Assembly (NCBI RefSeq): GCF_963667045.1
Contig: NZ_OY762934.1
Coordinates: forward strand, 3,116,501-3,180,500
Direction: 5' to 3'
From: an uncultured Cohaesibacter sp.
GTDB lineage: Bacteria; Pseudomonadota; Alphaproteobacteria; Rhizobiales; Cohaesibacteraceae
Length of the DNA: 64,000 nucleotides
The notes under the pieces were generated by a model that saw only the letters and a list, made by a program, of their open reading frames with translations, made no database searches and was not told the DNA's origin. Numbering within the stretch: the stretch's first letter is position 1; each line of letters opens with the position of its first letter. Shown piece by piece: positions 18,332-49,346 of this stretch. A program made the position numbers and the translations under genes.

Positions 18332-18341
18332 TTCTCCCATG

Positions 18342-18367
18342 GCTGTCCCGCGTCCGCGCGGGGCAGC
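18342..18367 (+). terminator. intra-operon hairpin after the binding-protein gene
   Basis: GCTGTCCCGCG (18342-18352) pairs with CGCGGGGCAGC (18357-18367) around TCCG, an 11-bp stem with one wobble. Such hairpins between a binding-protein gene and its permeases commonly stabilise the 5' message and lower downstream expression. No T-run follows. Confidence 0.5.
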
Positions 18368-18390
18368 TCCTTAAAGCATGGAAAATCTTC

Positions 18391-20093: not shown

Positions 20094-20102
20094 GAGTCCT
20101 GC

Positions 20103-23723: not shown

Positions 23724-23759
23724 ACTGGAAAGAAATCCAGATCAAAGGAGCATCGCTGC

Positions 23760-30116: not shown

Positions 30117-30962
30117 ATGAGTCTAGAAAACAAAGTCATTATTTCTGCGGCACTGACTGGTGCCATGACGCCCAAAAGTGCGAACGAGGCAATTCCTCTT
30201 ACCCCAGAAGAAATCGCTGAAGATGCCTACAAGTGCTGGAAAGCCGGAGCTGCTGTGGTTCACCTGCATATGCGGGATGATGAAGGCATGGGTGTCATGG
30301 ACCCGGCCAGATTCGAGGAAACCATCAAGCTGATCCGGGCTCATGAAGATTGCGATCTCGTGATCAACTGCACCACCTCTGGCGATCATCGTGCTGATGA
30401 CGATCTGCGTATGGCGCATGTACGCACGCTCGACGGCATCGAAATCGCATCCTATGACGCAGGTTCCTTCAATTGGATGCCGGGGGGGATCTTTGCGAAC
30501 TCGCCGCAGTTTCTTGCCAAACTTGGTCAGGTGATGATCGACAGGAATGTCAAGCCGGAAATCGAGATCTTTGACGCCGGCATGCTCGGGGTTGCCGACT
30601 ATTTCATCAATGATGGAAAGATCAAGGCCCCCGCACATTACCAGCTCTGCCTCGGTGTTGTCGGCGCAATGCCCGCAACCGTCGAAAACCTGCTGTATCT
30701 GTCATCCAAATTGCCGAAGGGATCAACCTGGTCCGCTTTCGGCATCGGTCGCGGTCATTTGCCAATCATGTATGCCACACTGGCTCTCGGCGGACATCTG
30801 CGTGTCGGCCTTGAAGACAATATCTATTTCTCCAAGGGGGTGAAGGCCACCAACGTCCAGTTGGTCAATCGCGCCGCCGATGCCATCAAAGTGTTCGGAA
30901 AGCAGACTGCCACTCCTGCTGAAGCTCGCGAAATTCTCGGCCTTCCTGCCCTGCAGCGCTGA
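30117..30962 (+). CDS. beta-keto acid cleavage enzyme (BKACE, DUF849)
   Basis: A 281-aa TIM-barrel enzyme of the BKACE family. Known members condense a beta-keto acid with acetyl-CoA and split it to acetoacetate and a new acyl-CoA. The zinc-binding histidines are H49 and H51 in AAVVHLHMRD; EIEIFDAGM and FGIGRGHLP are further family segments. The start at 30117 (MSLENKVIISAALTGA) fits the family opening. It leads an operon-like series with thiolase and CoA-transferase genes that would convert the acetoacetate back to acetyl-CoA. The specific keto acid is unknown. Confidence 0.88.
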   Translation: MSLENKVIISAALTGAMTPKSANEAIPLTPEEIAEDAYKCWKAGAAVVHLHMRDDEGMGVMDPARFEETIKLIRAHEDCDLVINCTTSGDHRADDDLRMAHVRTLDGIEIASYDAGSFNWMPGGIFANSPQFLAKLGQVMIDRNVKPEIEIFDAGMLGVADYFINDGKIKAPAHYQLCLGVVGAMPATVENLLYLSSKLPKGSTWSAFGIGRGHLPIMYATLALGGHLRVGLEDNIYFSKGVKATNVQLVNRAADAIKVFGKQTATPAEAREILGLPALQR

Positions 30963-31062
30963 GAGTTGAGTCATGCCGCTCTGCCGCTCTGCCCCTCCCC
31001 GCCGTGGAGCGGCATGACTGCCTGCGAGACATAATAATAATAAGCAAGTTGGAGTAATATCA

Positions 31063-32235
31063 ATGAAAGAAGCAGTTATTGTATCTGCTGTACGCACACC
31101 TGTTGGCCGATGTCGCGGCAAGCTGGCCTCTGTCCCTGCGCATATTCTCGGCGCTGCGGCTGTCAAGGAAGCTGTAAGTCGCTCCGGGATTGATCCCAAT
31201 CGCATCGAGGATTGCATTTTCGGCAACCTGATGAACAATGAAATCCTGAACATGGGGCGGATGGTGGCACTGGAAGCCGATCTGCCGATCTCTGTTCCGG
31301 GGATCACTCTCGATCGCCAGTGTGCCGCCTCGCTCAACGCGCTCGCTTATGGTGCAATGCAGATCATGTGCGGTTTTTCCGATGTGATTGTTGCTGGCGG
31401 TGTGGAAAGCGACAGTCGCCGCACCTACACCATGCAGAAGCTGGAACAGCCCTATTCTGTTGCTCCTCCGGTGATTGATGCCCGCTGGACCGCCCCGGAC
31501 CGCAAGGGCAACGTGCCGATGGGGATTACCGCCGAGAATATTGCCAAACGCTATGGCTTCAGCCGCACCCAGCTTGACGAGTTTGCGGTACGCAGCCACC
31601 AGCTGGCCGCTGCCGCAGTTGAAGCTGGCCGGTTTGTTGAACAGATTGTTCCGATCTCGGTGCCGCAACGCAAAATGGCCCCGATCATCGTTGACCGCGA
31701 CGAATGTGTCCGTGCAGAGAGTTCTGTCGAAACTCTGGCTGGTCTGCGTCCGGCCTTTATCAAGGATGGCCTTGTCACCGCGGGCAACTCCTCACCGATG
31801 AGTGATGGTGCCGGCGCCATGGTGATCATGGAGCGGTCGCTGGCCGAAGCGGAAGGCCTTGACTGTCTCGGTGTCTTTCGTGGCTATGCGGCAACCGGCG
31901 TTGATCCACATTACATGGGGCTTGGTCCGATTGCTGCAACGGAAAAGCTGATGAGGCAGACTGGTCTCAAGGTTGACGATATCGACCTTTGGGAGCTGAA
32001 CGAGGCCTTCTCGGCCCAGTCTCTGGCCTGCATCAAGGAAATAGGCATGCCGCTTGATCGTGTCAATCCGAATGGCGGCGCACTGGCTCTGGGCCATCCA
32101 TTGGCTGGCACCGGCGCAATCCTTACTGCCAAAACTGTACACGAGATGAAGCGCAACTCCAACATCAACAAGGCGGTCATTTCCTTCTGTGTTGGCGGTG
32201 GTCAGGGCGTTTCGGTGCTTTTGACGAGGGACTGA
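31063..32235 (+). CDS. acetyl-CoA acyltransferase (thiolase)
   Basis: A 390-aa thiolase. The nucleophilic cysteine is C87 in DRQCAASLNAL, the histidine lies in NGGALALGHPLAGTG, and the second cysteine is in SFCVGGGQG. NEAF is also present. DRQC replaces the more usual NQVC seen in biosynthetic acetoacetyl-CoA thiolases, so a degradative enzyme with longer or branched acyl substrates is likely. It sits 100 bp after BKACE and 2 bp before the CoA-transferase alpha subunit. Confidence 0.9.
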   Translation: MKEAVIVSAVRTPVGRCRGKLASVPAHILGAAAVKEAVSRSGIDPNRIEDCIFGNLMNNEILNMGRMVALEADLPISVPGITLDRQCAASLNALAYGAMQIMCGFSDVIVAGGVESDSRRTYTMQKLEQPYSVAPPVIDARWTAPDRKGNVPMGITAENIAKRYGFSRTQLDEFAVRSHQLAAAAVEAGRFVEQIVPISVPQRKMAPIIVDRDECVRAESSVETLAGLRPAFIKDGLVTAGNSSPMSDGAGAMVIMERSLAEAEGLDCLGVFRGYAATGVDPHYMGLGPIAATEKLMRQTGLKVDDIDLWELNEAFSAQSLACIKEIGMPLDRVNPNGGALALGHPLAGTGAILTAKTVHEMKRNSNINKAVISFCVGGGQGVSVLLTRD

Positions 32236-32237
32236 AC

Positions 32238-32891
32238 ATGACAACAGGAAAATTGGCCAATCGTGACGCCATCATTGCCAAATTCAAGGATGGCATGACC
32301 ATCATGAATGGCGGCTTCGCAAACAAGGGCATGCCGGAGGCAATCATCGACTGCGTTCTGGAAAGCGGCGCCCGCCACCTTACCCTGATCTCGAACGACA
32401 CCGGCGACCCCAACGAAACCGTTGGCCGCCTCGTGCATGAAGGCCGCATTGACAAGGCCATCTGTTCCCATATCGGCATGAACAGCGAAACCGTTGGCCT
32501 TTATCGTGAGGGCAAGATCGAAATCGAGTTCTGTCCGCAAGGTTCGCTGATGGAACGCATCCGGGCCGGCGGCTCGGGGCTTGGTGGTGTGCTGACCAAG
32601 ACGGGCCTTGGCACTCTGATGGAAGAAGGCAAGCAGATCATCGAAGTGGATGGGCAGCCTTACATTCTGGAGACCGCCCTGCGCGCAGATATCTCCATGG
32701 TGCGTTGCCGCATGGCTGATCCGCTTGGCAACCTTGCCTACCGAGGCACTTCCCGCAACACCAATGCCCTTGTCGCCATGGCTGGGGATCTGACGATTGT
32801 GGATGCTGATCTGATCGTGGAACTGGACGAAATCGGTATCGACCACATCCACACACCCGGTGTGTTCATCGACATGGTTCTGGCCAAGTAA
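32238..32891 (+). CDS. 3-oxoacid CoA-transferase subunit A
   Basis: A 217-aa alpha subunit of a class I CoA-transferase. The N-terminal GMTIMNGGFANKGMPEAII and the CPQGSLMERIRAGGSGLGGVL region are typical of AtoD/ScoA proteins. With subunit B it moves CoA between acyl-CoA and a free acid such as acetoacetate. It starts 2 bp after the thiolase stop. Confidence 0.91.
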   Translation: MTTGKLANRDAIIAKFKDGMTIMNGGFANKGMPEAIIDCVLESGARHLTLISNDTGDPNETVGRLVHEGRIDKAICSHIGMNSETVGLYREGKIEIEFCPQGSLMERIRAGGSGLGGVLTKTGLGTLMEEGKQIIEVDGQPYILETALRADISMVRCRMADPLGNLAYRGTSRNTNALVAMAGDLTIVDADLIVELDEIGIDHIHTPGVFIDMVLAK

Positions 32892-32903
32892 GAGGAGTGC
32901 GAG

Positions 32904-33548
32904 ATGGATATCCGCAACAGAATTGCAAAACGCGTTGCCGCCTTCTTCAAGCCTGGCGATGTTGTGAATCTCGGCATCGGCATGCCGAGCCTGTGTCCGA
33001 ACTATTCCGATCCGTCCGTCATGTTCCATACGGAAAACGGCCTGATCGGCACCGGGGCGACGGCAACAGGGCTGCATTCTCGTGACAACTTCACCAATGC
33101 ATCTGGGCAACCCTTCATCCCGTTGGCCGGAGCCGTCTCCTTCGACAGCGCAACCTCCTTTGCCATCGTTCGCTCGGGTCGGCTAGCTGCCACCGTTCTG
33201 GGGGCGCTCCAAGTGGCCGAGAATGGCGATCTGGCAAACTGGGCCCGCCCCGGCTTCATGGTCGGTATGGGCGGTGCCATGGATCTGGTAACCGGGGTTC
33301 CCAACGTCATCATCGCCATGGAGCTTTGCACCAAGAAGGGCGAGCCGAAGATTCTCAAGGAGTGCTCTTTCCCGCTGACCGGCAAGAAGGTGGTCAGTCA
33401 CATCGTTACCGAGTTCTGCGTGATCGATGTGACTCCGAAAGGTCTTGTCCTGACGGATCTTCTTGAAGGGGTTACGCCTGACGAGATCAGAAGCAAGATC
33501 GAGCCAGATCTTCTCATCGCTGATGACCTCAAGGTCATGGAGGCCTGA
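32904..33548 (+). CDS. 3-oxoacid CoA-transferase subunit B
   Basis: A 214-aa beta subunit carrying the catalytic glutamate, E44 in HTENGLIGTG. The VNLGIGMPSL opening and MVGMGGAMDLVTG segment match AtoA/ScoB proteins. A GAGGAG ribosome site precedes the ATG at 32904. In this cluster the likely job is charging acetoacetate released by BKACE so the thiolase can split it. Confidence 0.91.
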   Translation: MDIRNRIAKRVAAFFKPGDVVNLGIGMPSLCPNYSDPSVMFHTENGLIGTGATATGLHSRDNFTNASGQPFIPLAGAVSFDSATSFAIVRSGRLAATVLGALQVAENGDLANWARPGFMVGMGGAMDLVTGVPNVIIAMELCTKKGEPKILKECSFPLTGKKVVSHIVTEFCVIDVTPKGLVLTDLLEGVTPDEIRSKIEPDLLIADDLKVMEA

Positions 33549-33577
33549 AGCCACCTTGGCGCAACGACACGAACTGT

Positions 33578-33606
33578 GCCTGAGGGCGGCAATGCCACCC
33601 TCGGGC
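33578..33606 (+). terminator. hairpin after the CoA-transferase genes
   Basis: GCCTGAGGG (33578-33586) pairs with CCCTCGGGC (33598-33606), 9 bp with one wobble and an 11-base loop, followed by CTCTTT. It is a modest terminator or partial read-through element before the carrier genes. Confidence 0.5.
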
Positions 33607-33659
33607 CTCTTTAGCGCCTATAGGAAATGTATGTGGACGTATGGCAGGGAGGACTAGCC

Positions 33660-33773
33660 ATGACTGAAGACACCAGAGCGGGAAAGCCAGGCGATCTGGC
33701 TACCGTATCAAAAACACGAAACACGATGAGCCGCCAGCACTGGAAGGCGCAAAATGGGAGATCTGGGAAATGA
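33660..33773 (+). CDS. 37-aa ORF translationally coupled to the MFS gene
   Basis: ATG 33660 lies eight bases after a strong GGGAGGA ribosome site and opens a 37-residue frame beginning MTEDTRAGKPGDLATVSK and rich in basic residues. Its TGA overlaps the ATG of the carrier in an ATGA junction. The carrier's own start sits behind GGGA only. The arrangement implies ribosomes load here and re-initiate on the carrier. No family is recognised; it may be purely a translational leader. Confidence 0.5.
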   Translation: MTEDTRAGKPGDLATVSKTRNTMSRQHWKAQNGRSGK

Positions 33774-35065
33774 CCGATAATTCTGAGGCGATTGTCGCAA
33801 GTGAGCTTGGCAGAGCTCCCGACACAAAGGCGAATTTTACTGGCAAACACTGGCAGGTAATCATCTTTCAAGGATTGCTGTTCTTCCTTGGTGCAGGCGT
33901 AACGACGCATGGTCTCAATGTTGTTATTCCAACATTGTCCAAGACATATAATCTGGACTATGCGCAACTGCTTGCGCTCGCAACGCCTGCCTCTTGGGCC
34001 GGGATTGTTTCAAGCTATCTCGCTGCCAAGTCGTCAGAGAAGTGGGGTGCAAAACTCACCCTCCTCGTTTGCCTGCTTTTCACTGCAGTCTTCTATGCCG
34101 CATTGGGGTATGCAAGCTCGATGATGCTGTTCGTCTTCTTCTTCTCCGGTGTCGCATTCTTTGCTTCGGGGGGCGCCTATATTGCCGGTCCGTCGATCAT
34201 TGCCAACTGGTTTCCCAACAAGAAAGATCTTGCCTTTGGTTGGACCACCATTGGCCAGAACCTGTCATCGGCCTTCTTTGTGATGCTGCTTGCCTGGTTC
34301 CTCGCAACATTTGGCCCCCAGTGGGGCTTCTCGGGCATGTCGGTGCTGCTTGTCATCCTGTTTTTGCTGTTTGCGGTGTTTTCCAAGAATACGCCTGAAG
34401 AAGCGGGTTGCTTTCCGGACAATGATCCGAACTGGAAACAGCATGCGGCTGTTGACGAAGGCAATGTGGGGGCTGTCAATCCGGCCCTGACCACCGGTGC
34501 CCTGCTCAGAAACAAAGATGTCTGGCTGCTCGGTCTTGGCGCCGGAGGTGTCTATATCGTGCTCGTTGGTGTGCTCAGCCAGTTGGTCCCTCGTATGATG
34601 GACATGGGGCTCGATCTGCAGACCGCAATCTGGTACATGAGCCTTTCTGCTCTGATCGGCACCGTTGGCGCGCCATTCTGGGGCTGGCTTGGTCAGAAGA
34701 TCGGAACGAAATGGGCGCTTGCATTCTATGAAGCCTGGTGGGTTGTGGCGATTGTCATAAACCTGCTGGCGGGTTCCAGCGTCGTGATCCTCTGGGTATC
34801 GCTGTTGATGATCGGCCTTAGCCTTGGAGGCGCAACAAATCTGACGACCTCTGTGGTCGCCGGCAAATTCCGTCGCAAGGCCTTTGCTCCGGCCTTCGGT
34901 GTCGTGTCGCCGATCCAGTCAATCGTTCGCTGCTTTGCCTTCTCAATTCTAGCGCTTGGCCTCAACTATCTGGGAGGGCTCGCTGGCGCCTGGGCCCTGC
35001 TTGGTGGTATTGGAGTCCTCACGGTCATCTGCTATCTGCTGGTTGATCCGACACCGGTAGACTAA
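33770..35065 (+). CDS. MFS transporter (first of two)
   Basis: A 431-aa major-facilitator carrier with about 12 predicted helices. The loop after helix 2 reads SSEKWGAKLTLL, helix 4 has GGAYIAGPSIIANWFPNKKD, and the second half has LGGATNLTTSVVAGKFRRKA. The pattern resembles carboxylate carriers related to oxalate/formate exchangers. It probably imports the acid or cyclic substrate of this island. The next gene encodes a clear paralogue. Confidence 0.86.
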   Translation: MTDNSEAIVASELGRAPDTKANFTGKHWQVIIFQGLLFFLGAGVTTHGLNVVIPTLSKTYNLDYAQLLALATPASWAGIVSSYLAAKSSEKWGAKLTLLVCLLFTAVFYAALGYASSMMLFVFFFSGVAFFASGGAYIAGPSIIANWFPNKKDLAFGWTTIGQNLSSAFFVMLLAWFLATFGPQWGFSGMSVLLVILFLLFAVFSKNTPEEAGCFPDNDPNWKQHAAVDEGNVGAVNPALTTGALLRNKDVWLLGLGAGGVYIVLVGVLSQLVPRMMDMGLDLQTAIWYMSLSALIGTVGAPFWGWLGQKIGTKWALAFYEAWWVVAIVINLLAGSSVVILWVSLLMIGLSLGGATNLTTSVVAGKFRRKAFAPAFGVVSPIQSIVRCFAFSILALGLNYLGGLAGAWALLGGIGVLTVICYLLVDPTPVD

Positions 35066-35076
35066 ACGACAAAATC

Positions 35077-35101
35077 AACCGCGAGGCGTTGTCTCGCGGT
35101 T
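35077..35101 (+). terminator. hairpin between the two MFS genes
   Basis: AACCGCGAG (35077-35085) pairs perfectly with CTCGCGGTT (35093-35101) around a 7-base loop, 11 bp after the first carrier's stop. The T-run is poor, so termination may be partial. Confidence 0.55.
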
Positions 35102-35200
35102 CTGGCCTGTTATCGGGCCCAACAACATCTGTTTTTTCTCAATAAACAGATTATCGTGCACAGGGCTCGAGGACTCGTAGGTGCACGCAGAGGAAACGTT

Positions 35201-36511
35201 ATGCTTGAGGAAAAAACCCAAGCCGCAGGTGGGATTGGCGGCAATCTGACAACCACAGCAGCAGCCAACGATTTGCGCAGTAACTTTGGACCGCACGGCT
35301 GGACCATGATCGTATTTTCAGGACTTTTGTTCTGGATAAATACGGGCTCGACCGTGGATGGTCTCAACGTGATTTTAGGGGCTCTCTCTTCTACTTTCTC
35401 GCTCGACTATAACACCATGCTGGCATGGGCAACGCCTGCCACATTGTTTTCCATTCCGGCGGCCCCTGTTTTTGCCTGGATCAGCCAGCGCTACGGTCCG
35501 AAAACCGCAATATTGATCGGCCTTGCCCTGGGAGGAACCTGTTTCGGTCTTCTGGGTGTCTGGGGCACGATGATCGGCTTTCTGGTTCTCTTTTCCGGAG
35601 TCTGCTTTTGTGCCACCGGCTATGCCCATATTGGTGGCAATGCCATGATTGCCACGTGGTTTCCCCGCAAGAAAGGGCTGGCTCTTGGCTGGTCGACGAT
35701 GGGACAGAATTTCTCCACTGCGCTTTTCGTCCCGGCTATGGCCTGGCTTCTGGCTACTTTCGGCACCAGATATGCCTTCTGGGGGATTACTGCCCTCATC
35801 GTCATCTTGATGATCCTGTTTAGCCTGTTCGCAAAAAACACCCCCGAAGAAGCAGGTGTCGCCCCGGACAATGACGTTATGTCAGCCGAGGAAATTGCTC
35901 AGAGCGCCTGCTTGCACCGCGAGTATGTCTGTCCCTTGAGCACAAAAGAAATGCTGGGCTTGAAAGCCGTTTGGTATATCGGCCTGGCTTATGGGGCATT
36001 GTACATGGTCACGGTCGGCCTGGTCAGTCAGTTGGTGCCCCGCCTCATGTCGATTGGCTATGATCTGCAAACGGCCATTTCCTATCTGACAATTGTAGCT
36101 TTGGTCGGGGTCATCGGGTCCTACGCTTGGGGATGGCTGGACCAGAAGGTAGGGACGCGCAAGGCTTCGCTTATCTATTCGTTCTGGTATATTATCGCCC
36201 TGGCCCTTAACATATTTGAACTGAATGAAATCACGCTCTGGATTTCAGTGTTCATGATTGGTTTTGGAATCGGCGGCTGCGGCAATCTGGCAACATCGAT
36301 CGTGGCAACAAAATTCACCCGCGGAGCCTTTATCAAGGCTTGGGGTATCATCAACCCGATCCAATCAGTCGTGCGGTCCTGCGCTTTCGCACTTCTAGCC
36401 TTTGGCCTCACCTACATGGGAGGCTATGCCGGAGCCTACAGCATCTTCATTGTGGTCAACCTGATTGCCATCGTCATGATCTGGGCCCTTGATGAAAGAA
36501 AAATAGGATAG
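35201..36511 (+). CDS. MFS transporter (second, paralogue)
   Basis: A 436-aa carrier with the same layout as the previous one: shared blocks include HWQ/HGW before helix 1, LNVVI/LNVIL, NTPEEAG after helix 6, TAIWYMS/TAISYLT and the late IQSIVR/IQSVVR motif. The start at 35201 (MLEEKTQAAGG) is chosen over 35156 because it follows GAGGAAA. Tandem related carriers may serve uptake and efflux, or two related substrates. A strong terminator follows. Confidence 0.86.
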   Translation: MLEEKTQAAGGIGGNLTTTAAANDLRSNFGPHGWTMIVFSGLLFWINTGSTVDGLNVILGALSSTFSLDYNTMLAWATPATLFSIPAAPVFAWISQRYGPKTAILIGLALGGTCFGLLGVWGTMIGFLVLFSGVCFCATGYAHIGGNAMIATWFPRKKGLALGWSTMGQNFSTALFVPAMAWLLATFGTRYAFWGITALIVILMILFSLFAKNTPEEAGVAPDNDVMSAEEIAQSACLHREYVCPLSTKEMLGLKAVWYIGLAYGALYMVTVGLVSQLVPRLMSIGYDLQTAISYLTIVALVGVIGSYAWGWLDQKVGTRKASLIYSFWYIIALALNIFELNEITLWISVFMIGFGIGGCGNLATSIVATKFTRGAFIKAWGIINPIQSVVRSCAFALLAFGLTYMGGYAGAYSIFIVVNLIAIVMIWALDERKIG

Positions 36512-36543
36512 AGTGAAAGTCTTTCAGTCTACTTCAAATAAAC

Positions 36544-36589
36544 GCCCCTAGCTTTGACCAAAATGGTTGAAAATTTAGGGGCTTTTTTT
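36544..36589 (+). terminator. terminator after the second MFS gene
   Basis: GCCCCTA (36544-36550) pairs with TAGGGGC (36576-36582), followed by seven T residues at 36583-36589. Confidence 0.82.
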
Positions 36590-36750
36590 GTTTCCGACAT
36601 GTCTAGCTACCTTCAGGCACCCTATTCACACATCGCATTCTTCTTAGGGTTTCTCTATCGCGTTGCATTCACTTTTTCTCTTTCGAGGTTCCCGCTGCTC
36701 TCAACTGTTTTCCGAATTTGGTTATTACATGCCGACATAGCCGATAACTT

Positions 36751-36763
36751 AAAAAGAATTTCA
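36751..36763. promoter_or_regulatory. island motif copy 2
   Basis: AAAAAGAATTTCA, identical over 13 bases to 40658-40670 upstream of the second thiolase gene. Confidence 0.4.
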
Positions 36764-36845
36764 GTCGCTTGATTTTCGATGATAGCCTATTTCAAGAAAA
36801 CGCAAGGTTTTCATTGCGTAGTAGTCTTTTAAAATGCCGATTTTG

Positions 36846-36867
36846 AAGAATTAAAAAGATTCTTTCC
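36846..36867. promoter_or_regulatory. island dyad upstream of the crotonase gene
   Basis: AAGAAT-N7-ATTCTT is a perfect 6+6 dyad at 36846-36864. The 15 bases AAAAAGATTCTTTCC at 36853-36867 recur exactly, inverted, at 43219-43233 in front of the LysR gene. It lies about 60 bp upstream of the crotonase start. Confidence 0.45.
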
Positions 36868-36922
36868 AGTGGTCGGAAGTAGAAGACAGAAATAGATAAA
36901 ATTGGCTAAAGGAGAAACCTGA

Positions 36923-37918
36923 ATGGTCATCAAGAAAAACTACGATTCTGATCATGACAAGCGCAAAGAATATTCTCACAAAGAACTCGGCACGATCCCG
37001 CACATGCCTTTTGAGGAATATGCTGAGAAGCTGAAACATTGCATGAAGCTGACCCGGAAGAACGGTATTCTCGAAGCCAAGATGCATACCAACAACGGGC
37101 CTATCCAGTGGGGTGCCCCTCTGCATCAGGGTCTGCATTATTTCTTCGACTGGGCAGGTCGTGACCCGGACAACGAGGTCATCATTCTTGGCGGCATTGG
37201 CCCTGACACCTTCAAGGGTATCGGCCGGGTTGACGCCGACGGCAACTGGGTACCGGCAACCGAATTTGGTTCCGAGCCTGAAGAATCCTGGAAGATGTAC
37301 AACTACCAGTATTATGATGGCACCAAAGACATTGAGGGCCAGGTCTTCGATGTGCAGGTCCCGACCATTGGTGTATGGGCCGGTGCGACCTTCCACTCTG
37401 ACCTTGTTTTGTTCAGCGACATCACCCTGTGTACAGAAGATGCATGGACCACGGAAATGCACTTCCGTACCAATATGGTGCCTGGCGATGGCGTCCAGAT
37501 CGCATGGCGCGAATTGATGGGCCGCAAGCGCTTTGCCTATGCCGAGCTTACCGGTGAAATCATCACCGCTCGTAAGGCTCTGGAACTGGGTATGGTCAAC
37601 GAAATCTGTGAAGACGTGGATGCAGCCTACAAGCGCGCTTGGGAAATTGCTGAACTGATCATGTGCACCGGTACGCGTGTTACCCGTCGCATGACCGTGC
37701 AACAACTGCGCAAGCCTTGGAAAGAGGATATCTCCAACGAATTGCGCAACGCATTCTCCACCGAGATGTTCGTGACCGCAACCGACCACTCTCCGCATGA
37801 AGCGAAATATTGGGACGATGCCAAGGAAGAAGCCGCTCTGGTTCGCAAGGCAGAAGCAGAAGGCAAGGTGGTACGCCCACGACTTGGTGGCGGCGAATTC
37901 GAAACCCCGATCAAGTAA
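36923..37918 (+). CDS. crotonase-fold hydrolase, 6-oxocamphor-hydrolase-like
   Basis: A 331-aa crotonase-superfamily protein. The segment SDLVLFSDITLCTEDAW, then MHFRTNMVPGDGVQIAW and LTGEIITARKALELGMVNE follow 6-oxocamphor hydrolase, which breaks a C-C bond of cyclic beta-diketones. H180 and D189 keep the nine-residue spacing of that enzyme's catalytic His and Asp, as I recall them. Typical enoyl-CoA hydratase glutamates are not evident. It has its own upstream dyad and a terminator behind it. I infer retro-Claisen ring opening to a keto acid that BKACE could use; an ordinary hydratase is less likely. Confidence 0.8.
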   Translation: MVIKKNYDSDHDKRKEYSHKELGTIPHMPFEEYAEKLKHCMKLTRKNGILEAKMHTNNGPIQWGAPLHQGLHYFFDWAGRDPDNEVIILGGIGPDTFKGIGRVDADGNWVPATEFGSEPEESWKMYNYQYYDGTKDIEGQVFDVQVPTIGVWAGATFHSDLVLFSDITLCTEDAWTTEMHFRTNMVPGDGVQIAWRELMGRKRFAYAELTGEIITARKALELGMVNEICEDVDAAYKRAWEIAELIMCTGTRVTRRMTVQQLRKPWKEDISNELRNAFSTEMFVTATDHSPHEAKYWDDAKEEAALVRKAEAEGKVVRPRLGGGEFETPIK

Positions 37919-37949
37919 TGTAGGCACTTTTGCCATCCAAATTTCCTGA

Positions 37950-37990
37950 CAGGCGGTATTGGCGAGCAGTTGACACCGCCTGTTTTTTTT
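37950..37990 (+). terminator. terminator after the crotonase gene
   Basis: CAGGCGGT (37950-37957) pairs with ACCGCCTG (37975-37982), followed by eight T residues at 37983-37990. A strong intrinsic terminator, so the SDR behind it depends on read-through or its own promoter. Confidence 0.85.
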
Positions 37991-38039
37991 GAAGAATCGG
38001 GCGCGCAAGAAGCGCAGCCCTTTGAAATGAGGAAATATC

Positions 38040-38801
38040 ATGTCCCGTCTTGAGGGAAAAATTGCCATTATCACGGGCGCAAGTGCCGGTATCGGAGAGG
38101 CTACGGCCTGTCTTTTCGCAAAAGAAGGCGCAACCGTCGTCCTCGCTGCCCGTCGCGAAAAGAAACTGAATGAAATCAAAACCACCATTGAAGCAAATGG
38201 CGGCAAGGCTCTCGTTGTCAAAACCGACGTAACCAAGCTTGAAGACTGCAAAAACCTCGTTGCCAAGGTGGTTGAAGCCTTTGGGCGCATCGACATTCTG
38301 GTCAACAATGCCGGTATTGCAGACATGCACAAGTCTGCCGTTGCGACCAGCGACGCGTTCTGGGATCAAGTCGTACTGATGAACCAGACCAGTTTATTCT
38401 GGATGTGCCGCGAAGTCCTGCCCCACATGGAAAAGGCAGGATATGGCTCCATCGTCAATGTTTCCTCCATCGGCGGCGTGTTCGGTAGCGCAGGCATTGC
38501 CTACTCCGCAACCAAATCTGCTGTTCTTGGCATGACCAAAAATATTGCCATCCAGTATGCCGGTCGCGGTATCCGGTGCAATGCGACAGCTCCCGGCCCG
38601 ACGCCAACCGAGCTGAACACACCTGACAAACTGGCAACATTCGATCAGGAAATGCGCGAGATTACGGGACGCCATATGGATGTGACCCTGCCAGAATCTG
38701 AAGTTATTGATCAGGCCAATGGTATTCTATTCTATGCTTCTGACGAAGCACGTGCCGTTACGGGACAATGCATGATTATCGATCATGGTTGGACGCTATA
38801 G
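38040..38801 (+). CDS. short-chain dehydrogenase/reductase
   Basis: A 253-aa classical SDR. The dinucleotide motif is TGASAGIG at residues 12-19, NNAG is at 89-92, and the catalytic S142 or S143, Y155 and K159 lie in VSSIGG and YSATK. The R39 after the second strand (AARREKK) would favour NADP, though D63 in the KTDVT segment is only an adenine-pocket residue. In context it should oxidise a secondary alcohol to the ketone needed by the diketone hydrolase. AGGAAATATC precedes the ATG. Confidence 0.89.
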   Translation: MSRLEGKIAIITGASAGIGEATACLFAKEGATVVLAARREKKLNEIKTTIEANGGKALVVKTDVTKLEDCKNLVAKVVEAFGRIDILVNNAGIADMHKSAVATSDAFWDQVVLMNQTSLFWMCREVLPHMEKAGYGSIVNVSSIGGVFGSAGIAYSATKSAVLGMTKNIAIQYAGRGIRCNATAPGPTPTELNTPDKLATFDQEMREITGRHMDVTLPESEVIDQANGILFYASDEARAVTGQCMIIDHGWTL

Positions 38802-38851
38802 AACTTATTTTATAAAATACAAATAATTTTATATTTGTAAAAACACGATTA

Positions 38852-38884
38852 CCTGACAGCATAGTTTCTGTCAGGTATTTTTGT
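38852..38884 (+). terminator. terminator after the SDR gene
   Basis: ACCTGACAG (38852-38860) pairs with CTGTCAGGT (38869-38877), followed by ATTTTTG. Confidence 0.78.
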
Positions 38885-39196
38885 TTGTAGGTCCTATTGT
38901 TGAAATATAAGAACGTATATTCTTATATTTCAAATTTTTAGACAATGCTATTTTGAAGCGGATACATGATTTCTATGAAACTATTTTGTTATGTCGTGGC
39001 CGCATAAGCACTTGCCTAGTTAGAATTGGACCCCTTCAAAAAGCGATGCTAGCTCTTTACTGAACAGCCTGTCGGTTTGGGCTGTTGGGATATCAAGAAT
39101 AACTCGACAGGAGGAGTTCGGGTGACAATAACCATAGAGAAAGCCCCGCACGCAGATTGTGTCGGCGTCTTCGATGCTCAGGAGTCAATTCGCATC
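38885..39196. other. upstream region of the porin gene
   Basis: About 310 AT-rich bases without a recognisable gene. An in-frame extension upstream of the porin start exists from 39077 but puts 40 hydrophilic residues before the signal peptide, so I regard this stretch as leader and promoter. Confidence 0.45.
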
Positions 39197-40546
39197 ATGA
39201 CTACAGTAAAAGGCACCACAATTGCTGCGATAGGTTCCATTTTGTTGTGTGGTACAGCCTGCGCGCAATCTGCAAATGCCAGCAACGAGGCAACCGAGGC
39301 TACCGGCGTCATGTCCAGCCTCGTTGACTATTTGAACGGTCCCGGCGTTGCTGGGCCGCTTGCCCCGGTCGGCAAGGCGCTACATGAGCATGGCATCAAG
39401 CCGGTTCTGGTGCTGAGCAACAACTACATGACCAATCCGTCTCTGGGACTGGTAAAGGGTAAGACCGAGCGTGTCACGACAATCTCATACGGTGTGGACC
39501 TTGATCTGGAGCGTATTCTCGGTCTTCAGGGCTCTGCATTCCATGTCCTCGGGCAATACAACATGTGGACCCACGGCAGCGAAGATTTTGCCAATGCCAC
39601 CGGTGACAGCATCATCGGCCATGCTGCACCGTTTGCCCCGACAGATGAACGTCTGACAAAACTGACCTTTGAGCAGAAACTGTTTGATGACAGGTTCTCT
39701 TTTGAAGTCGGCATCGATAATGCTGCCAACCATTTTGGTACCCCTGTCTGCAACACCCCTTTCCTGTGTCAAGGCAGTGTGACCCAATTCTACAATGGCC
39801 TGAACCCGCCGCCGTTCGGCAACTACAGCGCACGAGCAGCTTACAAGGTAACCCCGCAAATTACCGCGCAAGCCGGGTATTACCGCACCAACCTGAACTT
39901 CCCCTTCTCTCACGGCTGGGAAGGCTGGAACGGCAAGGTCGAGCTACCCAATGGCGCTAAGGTTGAATCCAACTACAATCTGTTTTTGGCTAATCTGAGC
40001 TATGACACGTCACCTCAGACGGATCTCTACCCGACTCACCTGGAAGCGATGATCTATTATAATGACACCGATTTCGCGAGCCCGAAGACACCGGAAGTCT
40101 ATGACAGCATGACCGGACTTTATCTGGGAGCCAAGCAAACTGTCTGGCGCGAGAACAACGATCCGGCCTCAACCTCTGTTGCCCTGTATGGCAGCCTGTT
40201 TGCAGACTTTGGGGAAGGTGATGATGTCAATAGTGAGCTGGATGCCGGTGTCATTCTGCAGGGGCCATTCAAGAGCCGTCCGTTTGACAGCTATTCTGCC
40301 AAATTCATCTGGAACCATTTGTCTGATGACTACGCCTCCTACGCCAACGTTGGAGCTCAGGACGAGTTTTCTGCTGGGGTGGATGCAAACCTGGTTCTGG
40401 CTGGAAACACCATTCTACAGCCTTGGGCCATGTATAGCTGGAATACCAACAAGGCCATGAACCCTACGTCCACCGCATCCTCGGATGATGGATTGGCTGT
40501 CGGCGTGAATATGATATTCCTGATGGACAAGGCTTTGGGTCTTTGA
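39197..40546 (+). CDS. outer-membrane porin, OprB-like
   Basis: A 449-aa predicted outer-membrane beta-barrel. The start at 39197 (MTTVKGTTIAAIGSIL) gives a signal peptide cleaved near CAQSANA. The mature protein has alternating beta strands, with HVLGQYNMWTHGS, FEVGIDNAANHFG, CNTPFLCQGSVTQFYN and repeated aromatic strand ends, as in carbohydrate-selective OprB porins. The cysteine pair around residue 180 may form a loop disulfide. It would let the island's substrate cross the outer membrane. A UUCG-capped terminator follows. Confidence 0.74.
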   Translation: MTTVKGTTIAAIGSILLCGTACAQSANASNEATEATGVMSSLVDYLNGPGVAGPLAPVGKALHEHGIKPVLVLSNNYMTNPSLGLVKGKTERVTTISYGVDLDLERILGLQGSAFHVLGQYNMWTHGSEDFANATGDSIIGHAAPFAPTDERLTKLTFEQKLFDDRFSFEVGIDNAANHFGTPVCNTPFLCQGSVTQFYNGLNPPPFGNYSARAAYKVTPQITAQAGYYRTNLNFPFSHGWEGWNGKVELPNGAKVESNYNLFLANLSYDTSPQTDLYPTHLEAMIYYNDTDFASPKTPEVYDSMTGLYLGAKQTVWRENNDPASTSVALYGSLFADFGEGDDVNSELDAGVILQGPFKSRPFDSYSAKFIWNHLSDDYASYANVGAQDEFSAGVDANLVLAGNTILQPWAMYSWNTNKAMNPTSTASSDDGLAVGVNMIFLMDKALGL

Positions 40547-40578
40547 TCTTCAACTCTCGCAATAGAGTTACCTCTGTG

Positions 40579-40605
40579 AAGGCTCCTTCGGGAGCCTTTC
40601 TTTTT
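40579..40605 (+). terminator. terminator after the porin gene
   Basis: AAGGCTCC-TTCG-GGAGCCTT (40579-40598) is an 8-bp stem with a stable TTCG loop, followed by TCTTTTT. Confidence 0.85.
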
Positions 40606-40887
40606 GGTTGTTGGATTGGCAGGGGCCCCGTCTCTTGTCACACATAACATTATTCAAAAAAAGAATTTCACATATGCCTGCACGCTTCCGATTATGTGGG
40701 CGATTAGGCATGGGACGGTTCGCGTCAGAAGCTGAACAAATGCAGGTTCTGTCCTCGATGTTTGCCTGTTTTGTTGCTGTGCTTTGATTTTTGGCAACGT
40801 CAGAGGGCCTTGGTTTACTTGGCCCACCCGCCCGATGATTGACACTTTGAAACTCCTATTTGTCCAGTTATCCGAAAAGGAAAAAGA
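40606..40887. other. upstream region of the second thiolase gene
   Basis: About 280 bases with no gene. They carry an island motif at 40652-40670 and presumably the thiolase promoter. Confidence 0.45.
40652..40670. promoter_or_regulatory. island motif copy 3, LysR-box geometry
   Basis: ATTC-AAAAAAA-GAAT (40652-40666) has exact T-N11-A dyad form, and AAAAAGAATTTCA at 40658-40670 is identical to 36751-36763. It lies about 220 bp before the second thiolase gene. Confidence 0.42.
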
Positions 40888-42072
40888 ATGACCGAAATCG
40901 TCATCGCAGCTGCAGCTCGAACTGCTGTCGGGAATTTTAACGGGAACCTTGCGAGTGTTCCTGCCCACGAGTTGGGCGCGAGCGTCATCAAGTCGCTTTT
41001 GGAGCGTGCTCACCTCAATCCGGAAGAAATCGACGACGTCATTCTGGGGCAGGTGCTTACTGGCGCGCAGGGACAGAATCCGGCCCGCCAGGCCTCAATC
41101 GCTGCCGGACTGCCGATTGAAACGACAGCCCTTACCATCAATCAGGTCTGCGGGTCCGGTTTGCGTGCCGTTGCATTGGGATATCAGGCTCTGATGGCGG
41201 GAGATGCTTCTGTCGTGATTGCGGGGGGGCAGGAAAACATGAGCCTTGCACCGCATGCTGCCAATATCCGGATCCCGACCAAGATGGGGGCTGCGACTTT
41301 GCAAGACACCATGATCAAGGATGGATTATGGGATGCTTTTAACAATTATCACATGGGACAAACTGCCGAAAATGTTGCCACGAAATTCGGTATTTCGCGT
41401 AGCATGCAGGACGAATTGGCCGTTGGTTCGCAGATGAAAGCGGCAAAAGCGCAAAATGAAGGTCGGTTTTCTGACGAGATTGTTCCGATTTGCGTCAAGA
41501 CGCGCAAGGGGGATCTTGTTGTTGATCAGGATGAGTTTATTCGTCCTGGCACTACGATCGAAGGGTTGGCGAAACTGCGTCCTGCTTTCGCCAAAGACGG
41601 CACAGTAACGGCTGGCAATGCGTCCGGTATCAATGATGGTGCCGCAGCCGTTGTTTTGATGACTGCTGAAGAAGCCAATAGGCGCGGTATCAAGCCAATC
41701 GCTCGTATTGTGTCTTGGGGCACCGCTGGTGTCGATCCGAGCTTGATGGGAACTGGCCCGATACCGTCCTCACGCAAGGCTCTTTCCAAGGCTGGGTGGA
41801 CCGTTGATGAGCTTGATCTAATCGAGGCCAATGAAGCGTTCGCGGCTCAAGCGGTTGCCGTCAACAGGGAAATGGGCTGGGATCTGGATAAGGTCAACGT
41901 TAATGGGGGGGCAATCGCAATTGGTCATCCAATTGGAGCGTCTGGGGCCCGTATATTGGTCACCTTGCTGCACGAAATGAAAAGACGTGAAGCTGGAAAA
42001 GGTATTGCAACGCTTTGCATCGGGGGGGGCATGGGAATCGCTCTTTGTGTGGAACGATCCCCATCCCTGTGA
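40888..42072 (+). CDS. acetyl-CoA acetyltransferase (thiolase)
   Basis: A 394-aa thiolase of the acetoacetyl-CoA type. The nucleophile is C88 in [11 protein letters not shown], with [24 protein letters not shown] and CIGGGMGIA completing the active site. It fits the PhaA/AtoB group more closely than the first thiolase, so it may split acetoacetyl-CoA made from BKACE-derived acetoacetate. GGAAAAAGA precedes the start. It converges with the LysR gene across a strong terminator. Confidence 0.92.
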
Positions 42073-42138
42073 GACGTTACCAAGAAAGAAAAATGCCTTC
42101 CTAGCCCCAAAAATCCGAAAAGGCCCCGATTTTAAATT

Positions 42139-42175
42139 AAACAGGCTTCAAACTCGATTTGTCTGAAGCCTGTTT
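42139..42175. terminator. bidirectional terminator between thiolase and LysR
   Basis: AAACAGGCTTCA (42139-42150) pairs perfectly with TGAAGCCTGTTT (42164-42175). T-rich sequence flanks both sides, so it can serve both convergent genes. Confidence 0.82.
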
Positions 42176-42221
42176 TTGGGACGCAGAGCAAAGGGAACAG
42201 CAGTCTAGATGCTACTGTCAC

Positions 42222-43139
42222 TCAAATGTTGGTAAAGTTAGGATGCTCGTTTAGAAAGCTAGTCAGTTCGTCTGTGAATTTGGAAAGGCTGGGATTGCGG
42301 TTTTTGGGATCCCAAATCAGTTCAAGATTAAACTGGTAGCCTTTTTCCTCTACTTCTATCAAGCTTGCATTCTTTCCCAAATGAACTCTCTGATGCTTCG
42401 GGAGTATCACTATTGCGTCTTCGTTAAGTTCCAAGTTGAAGCAGCAAGTCGCCAGATTGGGGCTGACGATGTCTGGTCCGTAGACTATGCCGCTTTTCTC
42501 GAGAAAATAACTATTGCAGTCACCTGCTAGAGGTGACTGCTTCTTGTCTACTCCAATGATCGGATAATTTCCTACTTCTACGATTGAAACATCTCGGCGA
42601 CCAGCAAGTGGGTGGTTTTTGTGTACCGCAATGCAAAGTGGATCGCTAAACAACTTGAGGTATTTGAAGCGTGTATCGGTTATTTGCCGGTCCGGGCGAA
42701 TGATGAAAGCAAGATCACAGTCGTGTCTTTCCAATGCTTCCGGGACATGATCAAGCTCGGAATCGCAGCAGTTTATTTCCACGGCTTCATGGTGCTTGCG
42801 AAACTGTATCAGGAAATCGGAAAAGAACTCGCGCGTTGCAGCACCGAGAAACATGATTGAAAGGGAGTGTTTGTTCTTGCCGATTGCTTCCCGAATGACG
42901 TGAAAAGTGGCCTCATATTGGGCAACAATTTTTTCAGCTTCTTCTGCAAGCATCTTGCCGACGGGAGTGAGCTCAACTTGATGGGTGTTGCGTTCGAGCA
43001 ATTTGGCATCAAATTGTTCCTCCAGATACTTTAGGTGGCGGCTAAGTACGGGTTGGGTCATACCCAACTGCTCGGCAGCTCTGCTGAAATTTAGCAGTCT
43101 AGATAGCACCAAATACTCTCGAAAGAGCCTGATTTCCAT
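42222..43139 (-). CDS. LysR-family transcriptional regulator of the catabolic island
   Basis: A 305-aa LysR-type regulator. The start at 43139 (MEIRLFREYLVLSRLLNFSR) leads directly into the helix-turn-helix with AAEQLGMTQPVLSRHLKYLE. The effector domain begins near residue 90 (SLSIMFLGAATREFF). It is the only regulator of the island. An exact 15-base match between its own upstream region (43219-43233) and the crotonase upstream region suggests autoregulation and control of the island. Effector identity is unknown. Confidence 0.88.
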   Translation of the reverse strand: MEIRLFREYLVLSRLLNFSRAAEQLGMTQPVLSRHLKYLEEQFDAKLLERNTHQVELTPVGKMLAEEAEKIVAQYEATFHVIREAIGKNKHSLSIMFLGAATREFFSDFLIQFRKHHEAVEINCCDSELDHVPEALERHDCDLAFIIRPDRQITDTRFKYLKLFSDPLCIAVHKNHPLAGRRDVSIVEVGNYPIIGVDKKQSPLAGDCNSYFLEKSGIVYGPDIVSPNLATCCFNLELNEDAIVILPKHQRVHLGKNASLIEVEEKGYQFNLELIWDPKNRNPSLSKFTDELTSFLNEHPNFTNI

Positions 43140-43953: not shown

Positions 43954-44958
43954 TCAGGCTTTTGCGCGCACGCTGTTGCGCTCGATCAGCTCTACCGGGA
44001 TGTTGCGGTGGGAGGTCGGGCCGTTGGCCGGGCCCAGTACTGCTTCAAGGGTTGCTTCGGTGAGGGCCGAAAGAGACTGGCGCACGGTCGTCAGGCCGTG
44101 CGACGACCATGCGGAAATCGGCGCATCGTCAAAGCCGATGATGGAGAGGTCGTCGGGCACTGAAAGGCCCAGCTCGTGGCGTGCCGTGTTGAGGGCGCCA
44201 AGGGCCAGCTCGTCGCTGACGGCGAAAATGCCGTCGATGCCGGGTTTTGCCAGAAGGGCACGGGCAGCCTCGGCGCCGGTTTCATAGCAATGGGCACCGT
44301 CGCGCCACTGGGTGACCGGAATGCCGCTTGCTTCGACTTCAGCAACAAAGGCTTCGGCGCGGGCGCGCTTGGCGTGGGTGCGGGAGGCGGAGACCAGAAC
44401 AGCGATGCGGCGACAGCCTGCTTCAATCAGACGTTGGGCAGCGAGGCGGCCGCCAGCCGCCGAATCCGCCTCGATCAGATCCGCATGGGCTATGGCATGG
44501 GGTATGGAGCGGTTGATCAGCACCAGACGCGTGCCATTGGCCGCGCAGATGCGAACCACTTCGTCCGGGGCAGCGCCCGAGAGCAGCACCACCGTGCGGA
44601 CGCGATATTCGAGCAGTCGCTCGACGGATTTGGTGATGTCGCCATCCACCTCGGCCAGATTGACCAGAATGCACTGCAGATCGTGCTTGCTGAGCGCGGC
44701 GCTGAGGGCATCGATCTGGGCGGAAATATAAGGGCTGGAGAGATTCTTGCCCACCACGCCTACCAGATCGGAGCGGCTCATGTGCAGGGTGCGGGCCAGA
44801 AGATTGACCTTGTAGCCGAGCTCTTCGGCGGCGGCCGTGACCTTGCTGCGGGTCTTCTCCGAGACGCTTGCGCCCGATGTGAAGGTGCGCGAGACCGCCG
44901 AGCGGGAAACCCCGGCCCGCTTGGCAACATCGGAGGCGGAAATGAATTTGCTGTTCAT
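43954..44958 (-). CDS. LacI-family transcriptional regulator
   Basis: A 334-aa LacI/GalR-type repressor. The helix-turn-helix and hinge read ISASDVAKRAGVSRSAVSRT and GYKVNLLARTL; the periplasmic-binding-like effector domain follows from about residue 60. The start at 44958 (MNSKFISASD) overlaps the phosphatase stop by four bases. It is the last gene of the importer operon and probably binds the palindrome at 50443, giving feedback control. Confidence 0.88.
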   Translation of the reverse strand: MNSKFISASDVAKRAGVSRSAVSRTFTSGASVSEKTRSKVTAAAEELGYKVNLLARTLHMSRSDLVGVVGKNLSSPYISAQIDALSAALSKHDLQCILVNLAEVDGDITKSVERLLEYRVRTVVLLSGAAPDEVVRICAANGTRLVLINRSIPHAIAHADLIEADSAAGGRLAAQRLIEAGCRRIAVLVSASRTHAKRARAEAFVAEVEASGIPVTQWRDGAHCYETGAEAARALLAKPGIDGIFAVSDELALGALNTARHELGLSVPDDLSIIGFDDAPISAWSSHGLTTVRQSLSALTEATLEAVLGPANGPTSHRNIPVELIERNSVRAKA

Positions 44959-45611
44959 CGCGTCTGTTGTGTCTGGCGTGGAATCATCTGATTGGTGATC
45001 ACCGCGTTTGCCAGTGCCATCATGCCCGGCAATGGGTAGCTCTGGGGCAGTGGGCGCAATTGGCGCAGGAAGGTTATGGCCGCCTCGAAGGAGGCAAAGC
45101 GCTCGGGGCAGAAAGTGGCGAGCCACAGGGCAAGGACGGTGACCGAACGCGAGCGTCCGCCGCGGCAATGCAGGAGGATGTTGCCGCAATGATGCTGCGG
45201 ATAGTGGGGCTTGCCCGCGATATAGCCATGCATCATGCCCTCCAGTGCCATGACGGCAGAGGCCAGCAGCCAGGGACTGTTGCCCGGTCCGTCGATCATG
45301 CCGATCTGGGTGCGGCGGATGTTGGTGCCGTCGGGCAGGACCAGCGGCAGCGGGAAGATGTTGATCGAGACATTGAGGCTTTCAGTGATGTTGGCCGCCA
45401 GCAGCGCTGCTGCGTCTTCCGCTGCGGTGAGGTTGCCCAGATAGAGCGTCTTTTGATGCGGGCCGTAGTCCTCGATGATGGGGATCAGGACGGTCTGTGC
45501 GTCTTCCGTTGCCTCGGTCGCGTCGACATCTGTTGGCAGACCGTGATGGGGGAGGTTGGTGTTCAAGGTCTCAAATCTCCATTTCCCGCTGAAGGGCGAG
45601 GCGGTCGCCAA
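44955..45611 (-). CDS. dual-specificity/tyrosine-type phosphatase-like protein
   Basis: A 218-aa protein with a cysteine-phosphatase loop HCRGGRSRS: C149, five residues, R155, S156. D107 in GMIDGPGNSP is a candidate general acid. There is no signal peptide or membrane anchor. In an importer operon it more likely removes phosphate from the imported compound than from proteins, but that is inference. The ATG at 45611 overlaps the upstream gene by 41 bp; a TTG at 45566 with GGAG ten bases ahead would give a 202-aa product and is a realistic alternative. Confidence 0.78.
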   Translation of the reverse strand: MATASPFSGKWRFETLNTNLPHHGLPTDVDATEATEDAQTVLIPIIEDYGPHQKTLYLGNLTAAEDAAALLAANITESLNVSINIFPLPLVLPDGTNIRRTQIGMIDGPGNSPWLLASAVMALEGMMHGYIAGKPHYPQHHCGNILLHCRGGRSRSVTVLALWLATFCPERFASFEAAITFLRQLRPLPQSYPLPGMMALANAVITNQMIPRQTQQTR

Positions 45612-48323: not shown

Positions 48324-48327
48324 GCGA

Positions 48328-49296: not shown

Positions 49297-49346
49297 GATT
49301 TCGTCCTTGAATGACTGATAATGGTAAGTTTGAGAGAGGGATCGGT

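Follow-up and report, generated by a model that had tools for sequence, protein, structure and literature searches.

Which compound is degraded by a gene cluster that combines a crotonase-family protein with a beta-keto acid cleavage enzyme (BKACE), a 3-oxoacid CoA-transferase (CtfAB), two thiolases (THL1 and THL2) and a short-chain dehydrogenase/reductase (SDR)? The question arises from a 64,000-nucleotide stretch of the genome of an uncultured Cohaesibacter sp. (contig NZ_OY762934.1, positions 3,116,501 to 3,180,500; hereafter, the window), for which an initial annotation had proposed a route from an alicyclic alcohol to acetyl-CoA. Our analysis points to another kind of substrate. The operon would encode a catabolic pathway for a 1,3,5-trioxygenated six-membered ring, either phloroglucinol or a close (perhaps C-substituted) analogue, a reading to which we assign a probability of about 0.55. 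In more general terms, the set probably degrades small plant-phenol-like rings to acetate units through successive C-C cuts. This pathway reading rests on family membership, catalytic residues, co-inheritance of the genes, the close relationship of the BKACE to its counterparts in phloroglucinol-type clusters, and the presence of a thiolase of the cluster type.

The crotonase relative is hereafter called OCHL (6-oxocamphor-hydrolase-like). Its best matches among PDB sequences were 6-oxocamphor hydrolase (OCH; 1o8u, E = 1.7e-28) and Anabaena beta-diketone hydrolase (ABDH; 2j5g, E = 9.5e-26), while the best hydratase reached only 3.5e-9. H158, H180 and D189 of OCHL align with H122, H145 and D154 of OCH (numbering counted on the 1o8u row), which we take to have catalytic roles in that enzyme; the His/Asp spacing noticed in the initial annotation is thereby retained. 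These positions were invariant in 23/23 aligned OCHL-family sequences, a selection of the collected loci in which two are distant relatives. The other OCH entry, 1szo, differs from 1o8u at residue 122, and its title names a His122Ala mutant. When an AlphaFold2 model of OCHL (mean pLDDT 77.4, pTM 0.81) was searched with Foldseek, OCH 1o8u was retrieved first (2.7e-18, TM 0.85 by target), followed by ABDH and later by hydratases (2.1e-13). In a quick crotonase tree of 56 rows, midpoint-rooted and with several long branches, OCHL, OCH and ABDH formed a 48-row group (Shimodaira-Hasegawa-like approximate likelihood ratio test, SH-aLRT, 99) apart from eight ordinary crotonases. The proposed kinship with beta-diketone hydrolases was thus borne out by sequence, fold and phylogeny, the last having been suggested as a check on whether the protein groups with ordinary hydratases. 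OCHL shares the fold and the His/His/Asp active-site residues with both OCH (1o8u, 1szo) and ABDH (2j5g, 2j5s), but it is longer (331 aa versus 257 and 263 aa, respectively), its Foldseek identity to them is 26-27% and 30-32%, and the conserved surroundings of BKACE, CoA-transferase and thiolase genes are known for the OCHL side of the comparison. The weak Pfam ECH_1 match of OCHL (1.4e-07) would fit a CoA-dependent enzyme akin to enoyl-CoA hydratases, as part of an ordinary set for acyl-CoA breakdown, but the far better OCH/ABDH matches and the invariant triad make this explanation extremely improbable. As judged from sequence and model, OCHL is a crotonase of the OCH/ABDH group rather than an enoyl-CoA hydratase, and it is predicted to hydrolyse a ring C-C bond of the beta-diketone type.

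A scan with peptide patterns collected 38 OCHL loci in five phyla, with 71-83% identity. The patterns were exact and derived from a single protein, so close relatives are favoured; two pairs of loci (L017/L020 and L013/L032; L and G numbers denote our loci and genomes) come from one genome each. Hosts include Pasteurellaceae (such as Lonepinella koalarum), Enterobacterales (such as Brenneria and Kosakonia), Tolumonas, Alphaproteobacteria, Spirochaetota, Actinomycetota, Chloroflexota and a metagenome-assembled genome (MAG) placed in Myxococcota. In the available flanks of these 38 loci, BKACE was detected at the thresholds used in 30, CtfA in 27, CtfB in 27, THL1 in 25, THL2 in 23, a related LysR in 22, a major facilitator superfamily (MFS) carrier in 20 and SDR in 15, and BKACE and THL1 were adjacent in 20. 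Of the 27 loci whose flanks extend for 7.9 kb or more on each side, 24 have BKACE and 24 have CtfAB. We also examined 61 genomes, comprising the window's own genome (G000) and 60 relatives. A close OCHL (E = 1.1e-189 or better) was found in G000, G003, G013 and G015, with distant OCH-like or crotonase matches in others, and window-type BKACE (E = 1e-90) occurred in 4/61 genomes, exactly these four.

It is very unlikely that the genes form independent modules, each for its own unrelated substrate and adjacent by chance. Such an explanation could draw on the variation of gene order among phyla, on three loci (L023, L025, L029) with no partner gene at the thresholds used, and on Rhodoplanes, Breoghania and Demequina, where the SDR or the BKACE block lies beyond the 10-kb OCHL flank or on another contig; in Rhodoplanes (L035), the flank holds only LysR, and a BKACE-THL1-CtfB-MFS-SDR block lies just outside it on the same contig. 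Against it stands the recurrence of OCHL, BKACE and THL1 together across phyla. From this recurrence and the presence/absence profiles, we judge the association of OCHL with its partners to be far beyond chance. Comparative genomics thus upholds the claim that the genes act as one pathway unit, and the set is inherited as such.

Two main subclades were distinguished in the OCHL tree, and positions 67, 92, 96 and 153 of the window OCHL set three rows from one subclade apart from 17 rows in the second. Both subclades occur in one spirochaete locus, where paralogues, one per subclade, lie at L002:9549-10544 and L002:13211-14209; L013 and L032 are likewise on one contig. The presence of both subclades in one spirochaete genome fits two related substrates and suggests that the paralogues act on them. 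More distant OCH relatives (34-36%) were observed at L140:2941-3816 and L023:9115-10029. The former lies near a BKACE with the motif TGAV (65%), a THL1 (59%) and CtfAB-like genes (identified by inspection), a neighbourhood from which it seems that the wider family of OCH relatives may share the pathway.

The BKACE narrows the choice of substrate. According to the main text of PMC10470551, anaerobic phloroglucinol degradation in Clostridium scatologenes (hereafter, the Zhou-type pathway) proceeds through phloroglucinol reductase (PGR, with the motif TR(S/N)), DPGC, TfD and TAL, followed by a CoA-transferase and a thiolase; DPGC is a Mn-dependent cyclase with Trp20 and Tyr22, TfD is of the 3HCDH type, and TAL is of the BKACE type. 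The same text describes Glu14 of Kce as contacting the 5-amino group of the substrate and gives Trp at this position in the C. scatologenes TAL, CsTAL (PMC10470551). The window BKACE shares family and reaction type with Kce, but Glu14 of Kce is replaced by Met in the window and in L036 and by Val in the other aligned rows; further BKACEs have Met (L066) or Leu (L067). A 5-amino substrate is therefore unlikely for the window enzyme, which also scored below every matched NCBIfam equivalog cut-off (for the best model, Lys_ferment_KCE, 285.9 bits against a required 382). A careful tree, built from 54 rows without Kce, showed the OCHL-linked BKACEs (33 rows, support 89/80) and the Trp/Phe-type BKACEs (7 rows, 94/86) as sister groups, joined with support of 100/98 against 14 others, mostly of the NF053538 type. 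Among the Trp/Phe-type sequences, L112, L135 and L136 come from Zhou-type clusters and the other four from other settings. A quick tree with four distinct sequences carrying the motif TGAW, one of them also present as an identical second row, had placed the OCHL-linked BKACEs within the TGAW group; this origin was dropped because the fuller tree shows sister groups. ORFs (open reading frames) were assigned by a mechanical procedure that set some starts too far upstream in GC-rich loci, and the label TGGW for the BKACE of L014 was an artefact of such an N-terminally over-long ORF, the motif being TGAV.

In a quick thiolase tree, THL1 formed a single clade (Table 1) and THL2 was scattered over several thiolase groups. 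The THL2 sequences of Pasteurellaceae adjoin the thiolase of Zhou-type clusters, and the single thiolase of the Zhou-type cluster in Brenneria is also of the THL2 kind. THL1 would thus act on the BKACE product, which may be something other than plain acetoacetyl-CoA, and this in turn points to a substituted ring.

The following sequence of reactions can be proposed from the chemistry of these families. OCHL would add water to the beta-diketone (keto-tautomer) form of the ring and open it to a 3,5-dioxo acid. BKACE would then transfer its terminal acetate unit to acetyl-CoA. Of the two products, acetoacetate and a 3-oxoacyl-CoA, the latter would be cleaved by THL1. Acetoacetate would be activated by CtfAB and the resulting acetoacetyl-CoA cleaved by THL2. 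The end products would be acetyl units, and ATP could be gained via acetate kinase, which some genomes encode next to the set. In SDR-bearing genomes, the pathway may include an additional redox step, with a reduced ring as the possible substrate of OCHL. Hydroxyhydroquinone, pyrogallol and resorcinol were rejected on paper as direct substrates, because their hydrolysis yields no beta-keto acid.

In redox terms, phloroglucinol equals three acetyl units. The gene order in Enterobacterales is OCHL-BKACE-THL1-CtfAB-MFS-THL2 (in L015, OCHL faces the rest), and no redox gene was found between OCHL and THL2 in any of the 11 Enterobacterales loci, out of 12, that span both (the twelfth, L021, ends early). 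Given this redox level and the lack of a redox gene in the operon, direct hydrolysis of the keto tautomer is the simplest reading for Enterobacterales, although a redox enzyme may lie elsewhere in the genome. We tentatively extend this idea to a dearomatisation that needs neither redox chemistry nor metal: OCHL might hydrolyse the keto tautomer of phloroglucinol or a C-substituted phloroglucinol (for example, the A ring of flavan-3-ols) to a 3,5-dioxo acid without a reductase, so that three successive C-C cuts, by water, acetyl-CoA exchange and CoA, yield acyl-CoA units. We consider this version less likely than not. The C-substituted variant (the catechin A ring) may apply in view of the second thiolase and of gut metabolites.

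The distribution of the SDR bears on two further explanations. Genome-level counts refer to 39 OCHL genomes (that of L009 was left out, and some assemblies may be incomplete). An SDR was found in 24/39, namely 8/20 and 15/20 in two sets, plus G000, always at E = 4e-80 or better; the two sets overlap by two genomes, both negative. No SDR was found (E = 1e-50 or 1e-55) in the other 15/39, which comprise all 10 Enterobacterales searched, G015, and MAGs of Tolumonas, Propionibacteriaceae, Deltaproteobacteria (1.3 Mb) and Chloroflexi. Among the 61 genomes, an SDR (E = 1e-65) occurred in three, all with a close OCHL, G015 being without one. By these profiles, the SDR is best regarded as accessory to the set. 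A PGR role for the window SDR was rejected, as its identity to the SDR of the Brenneria Zhou-type cluster, the PGR candidate, is just 31%.

In the route of the initial annotation, the SDR would convert an alicyclic alcohol into a cyclic beta-diketone, which OCHL would open before BKACE and the thiolases act. The tie between SDR and OCHL in the 61 genomes agrees with it, cyclohexanol dehydrogenase 4ure ranks seventh among the PDB sequences matched by the SDR (5epo ranks first), and the window porin belongs to OprB, a family named carbohydrate-selective. However, an SDR that makes the ketone is hard to reconcile with the lack of a match in the 15 genomes above, and the beta-keto acid that BKACE requires would not arise from a simple cyclohexane-1,3-dione. 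Moreover, another outer membrane protein family (X8) was found in 11/42 loci, its L001 member matching PF13557, which is named for phenol degradation. An alicyclic starting compound is therefore doubtful.

The second explanation is that OCHL replaces DPGC within a reductive route. A reductase would yield a 5-hydroxy-1,3-dione, OCHL would open it to 3-hydroxy-5-oxohexanoate, and the SDR, in the role of TfD, would oxidise this to 3,5-dioxohexanoate for BKACE. As a genuine cyclic 1,3-diketone, dihydrophloroglucinol belongs to the substrate class of OCH, and the SDR, present in most OCHL genomes as counted above, was found at E = 1e-65 in 0/57 genomes without a close OCHL. On the other hand, no PGR match above 43% identity was found in 37/39 OCHL genomes (though PGRs may diverge that far), the 10 Enterobacterales have no detected SDR, and the window SDR shows the low identity to the Brenneria PGR candidate mentioned above. 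We consider this replacement unlikely, if less so than the alicyclic route.

The window set and the Zhou-type pathway of C. scatologenes have in common a C-C hydrolase acting on a 1,3-dioxo ring, a BKACE-family lyase, a CoA-transferase, a thiolase and an MFS carrier. They differ in the ring opener (an OCH-type crotonase instead of a Mn-dependent cyclase), in the BKACE (Met/Val instead of Trp), in an additional cluster-type thiolase and in an SDR from another lineage. Neither a PF04199 cyclase (DPGC) nor a 3HCDH domain (TfD) was found among the ten window cluster proteins scanned; the cluster holds no PGR-like gene, and G000 has no match to the Brenneria PGR at E = 1e-48. The genome of Brenneria izbisi (L007) carries a Zhou-type cluster on the same contig as its OCHL operon, with MFS, CtfAB, SDR, 3HCDH, W20/Y22 cyclase, thiolase and TGAW BKACE (three domains checked); its PGR is named by position and synteny only and has TGRT in place of TR(S/N). 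An Enterobacterales MAG (L136) has the same Zhou-type enzymes with 78-90% identity to those of Brenneria, and an OCHL operon too; of these two Zhou-type clusters, CtfAB was seen in that of Brenneria. A spirochaete MAG (L135) has TAL (58%), DPGC (82%) and 3HCDH, with no PGR match. Thus, 3/39 OCHL genomes hold both OCHL and a Zhou-type cluster, one of them without a visible reductase, and their coexistence suggests that OCHL may serve a related substrate. DPGC-like proteins (71-72%) were also detected in G000, G003 and G013, and no DPGC was found at E = 1e-40 in the remaining 33/39. Eight of the 10 Enterobacterales OCHL genomes lack close PGR and DPGC besides the SDR. In a subset, some Cyclase-family protein was present in 17/23 OCHL genomes and none in 6/23.

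The DPGC-like cyclase of G000 (71%, with W20/Y22) is encoded at L086:1078-2025 (G000:C1:4201737-4202663), about 1 Mb from the window cluster, next to a hydantoinase-like gene (by inspection) and without a close PGR or TAL. G000 has no close TAL, the best match being the window BKACE (49%). Perhaps this cyclase acts on another cyclic substrate.

Several observations weigh against phloroglucinol or a close analogue as the substrate of the window set. The window BKACE scored 181.8 with NF053538, the 3,5-dioxohexanoate model (cut-off 430); it has Met, and its relatives Val, where the characterised TAL has Trp; and the two BKACE subgroups are moderately supported (89/80 and 94/86). The TGAW BKACE of Brenneria likewise falls under the NF053538 cut-off (238.3). 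This model, found in 62/150 genomes of the order and failed by both BKACEs, was dropped as a TAL marker. No main-clade THL1 was found in the flanks of the actinomycete BKACE loci L027, L030 and L038, which weakens the inference of a substituted ring, or of the spirochaete loci L002 and L032. In addition, the 24 SDR-bearing genomes suggest that many hosts need a redox step, the three genomes with both cluster types would be odd if the substrate were phloroglucinol itself, and a flavin reductase family (X9) lies near OCHL in eight Enterobacterales loci.

The X9 loci are L007, L008, L009, L010, L014, L019, L020 and L033; FMN_bind and FAD_binding_2 domains were detected in the L007 member, and in Kosakonia (L014), X9 is accompanied by NrfD-like and ApbE-like genes (by inspection). 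Another family, X11, has members close to OCHL in five loci from spirochaetes and a MAG of Chloroflexi (L002, L005, L013, L029, L032); its L002 member is HpaB-like, and its Cys/His pattern presumably resembles that of 4-hydroxybutyryl-CoA dehydratase. Genes of the acetate kinase family (in L066 and L140) and of the phosphotransacetylase family (in L106) were found next to the set, and a phosphate acyltransferase gene adjoins BKACE in L030. As for transport, L136 encodes an outer membrane protein next to its Zhou-type genes that shares 60% identity with an outer membrane protein from within the Brenneria OCHL operon L009, and the inner-membrane carriers of OCHL and Zhou-type clusters share only 29-34% identity. 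Two other candidates were rejected: the L023 molybdoenzyme as a pyrogallol transhydroxylase (its best PDB match is acetylene hydratase), and phloretin hydrolase (PF18089) as a regular partner (just 4/39 OCHL genomes).

ORF and profile searches recovered every gene named in the initial annotation, with ten genes on the + strand (30117-42072) and LysR on the - strand (Table 1). Intergenic gaps are 2-411 bases, counting the porin ORF from 39077. The likely start of the porin, from its signal-like N-terminus, is the internal ATG at 39197, and LysR is likely the regulator of the set.

Table 1. Genes of the OCHL cluster, with positions in the window
Gene product	Position	Strand	Evidence
BKACE (beta-keto acid cleavage enzyme)	30117..30962	+	PF05853, 323.7 bits (curated cut-off 24.8); Met at Kce Glu14 position
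Thiolase 1 (THL1), cluster-type, adjoins BKACE	31063..32235	+	PF00108/PF02803; 29-row clade, SH-aLRT 99
3-Oxoacid CoA-transferase subunit A (CtfA)	32238..32891	+	PF01144; TIGR02429, 207 bits (above cut-off 128.5)
3-Oxoacid CoA-transferase subunit B (CtfB)	32904..33548	+	PF01144; TIGR02428, 240.9 bits (just below cut-off 243.55)
MFS carrier 1, monocarboxylate / oxalate-formate antiporter-like	33770..35065	+	PF07690; NCBIfam matches far under cut-offs
MFS carrier 2	35201..36511	+	PF07690; 44% identity to carrier 1
OCHL, 6-oxocamphor-hydrolase-like crotonase, 331 aa, predicted ring-opening C-C hydrolase	36923..37918	+	PDB sequence, Foldseek, residues, tree
SDR, accessory	38040..38801	+	PF00106; PDB best 5epo; presence/absence profiles
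OprB-family outer membrane porin	39197..40546 (ORF from 39077)	+	PF04966, 91.3 bits
Thiolase 2 (THL2), acetoacetyl-CoA thiolase type	40888..42072	+	PF00108/PF02803; PRK05656, 573 bits (cut-off 688); tree
LysR-type regulator	42222..43139	-	LysR-family NCBIfam matches under equivalog cut-offs

Elsewhere in the window, a solute-binding protein, a sulfatase, a MalK-type ATPase and a radical SAM/SPASM/SEC-C protein are encoded in one stretch (16997-25091), which looks like a system that imports sulfated sugars and removes their sulfate groups, equipped with a sulfatase maturase of the anaerobic type. On the other side of the cluster, a LacI-type regulator gene (43954-45189) and an ATP-binding cassette importer (permease, solute-binding protein and ATPase; 46584-50423, - strand) were observed.

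The initial annotation knew of no pathway with exactly this set. The exact set was indeed not found in the titles and abstract openings searched, most subscription journals lying outside the search, but the Zhou-type pathway follows the same logic with another ring opener and added redox steps. Within the same limits, nothing was found that joins phloroglucinol and 6-oxocamphor hydrolase; a word search of the main text of PMC10470551 returned neither oxocamphor nor Brenneria, and crotonase only in the reference list.

Many OCHL carriers live in tannin-rich guts, bark or peat. If the proposed pathway is correct, the OCH/ABDH branch of crotonases would gain a widespread role beyond camphor, and there would be a second way of opening rings of the phloroglucinol type, which occur in tannins and flavonoids, for instance. 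We know of no report of genes for catechin A-ring fission, and a literature search on it found nothing; should the C-substituted version hold, this fission would become directly testable. Genomes judged by PGR and DPGC alone would, moreover, be missed as polyphenol degraders.

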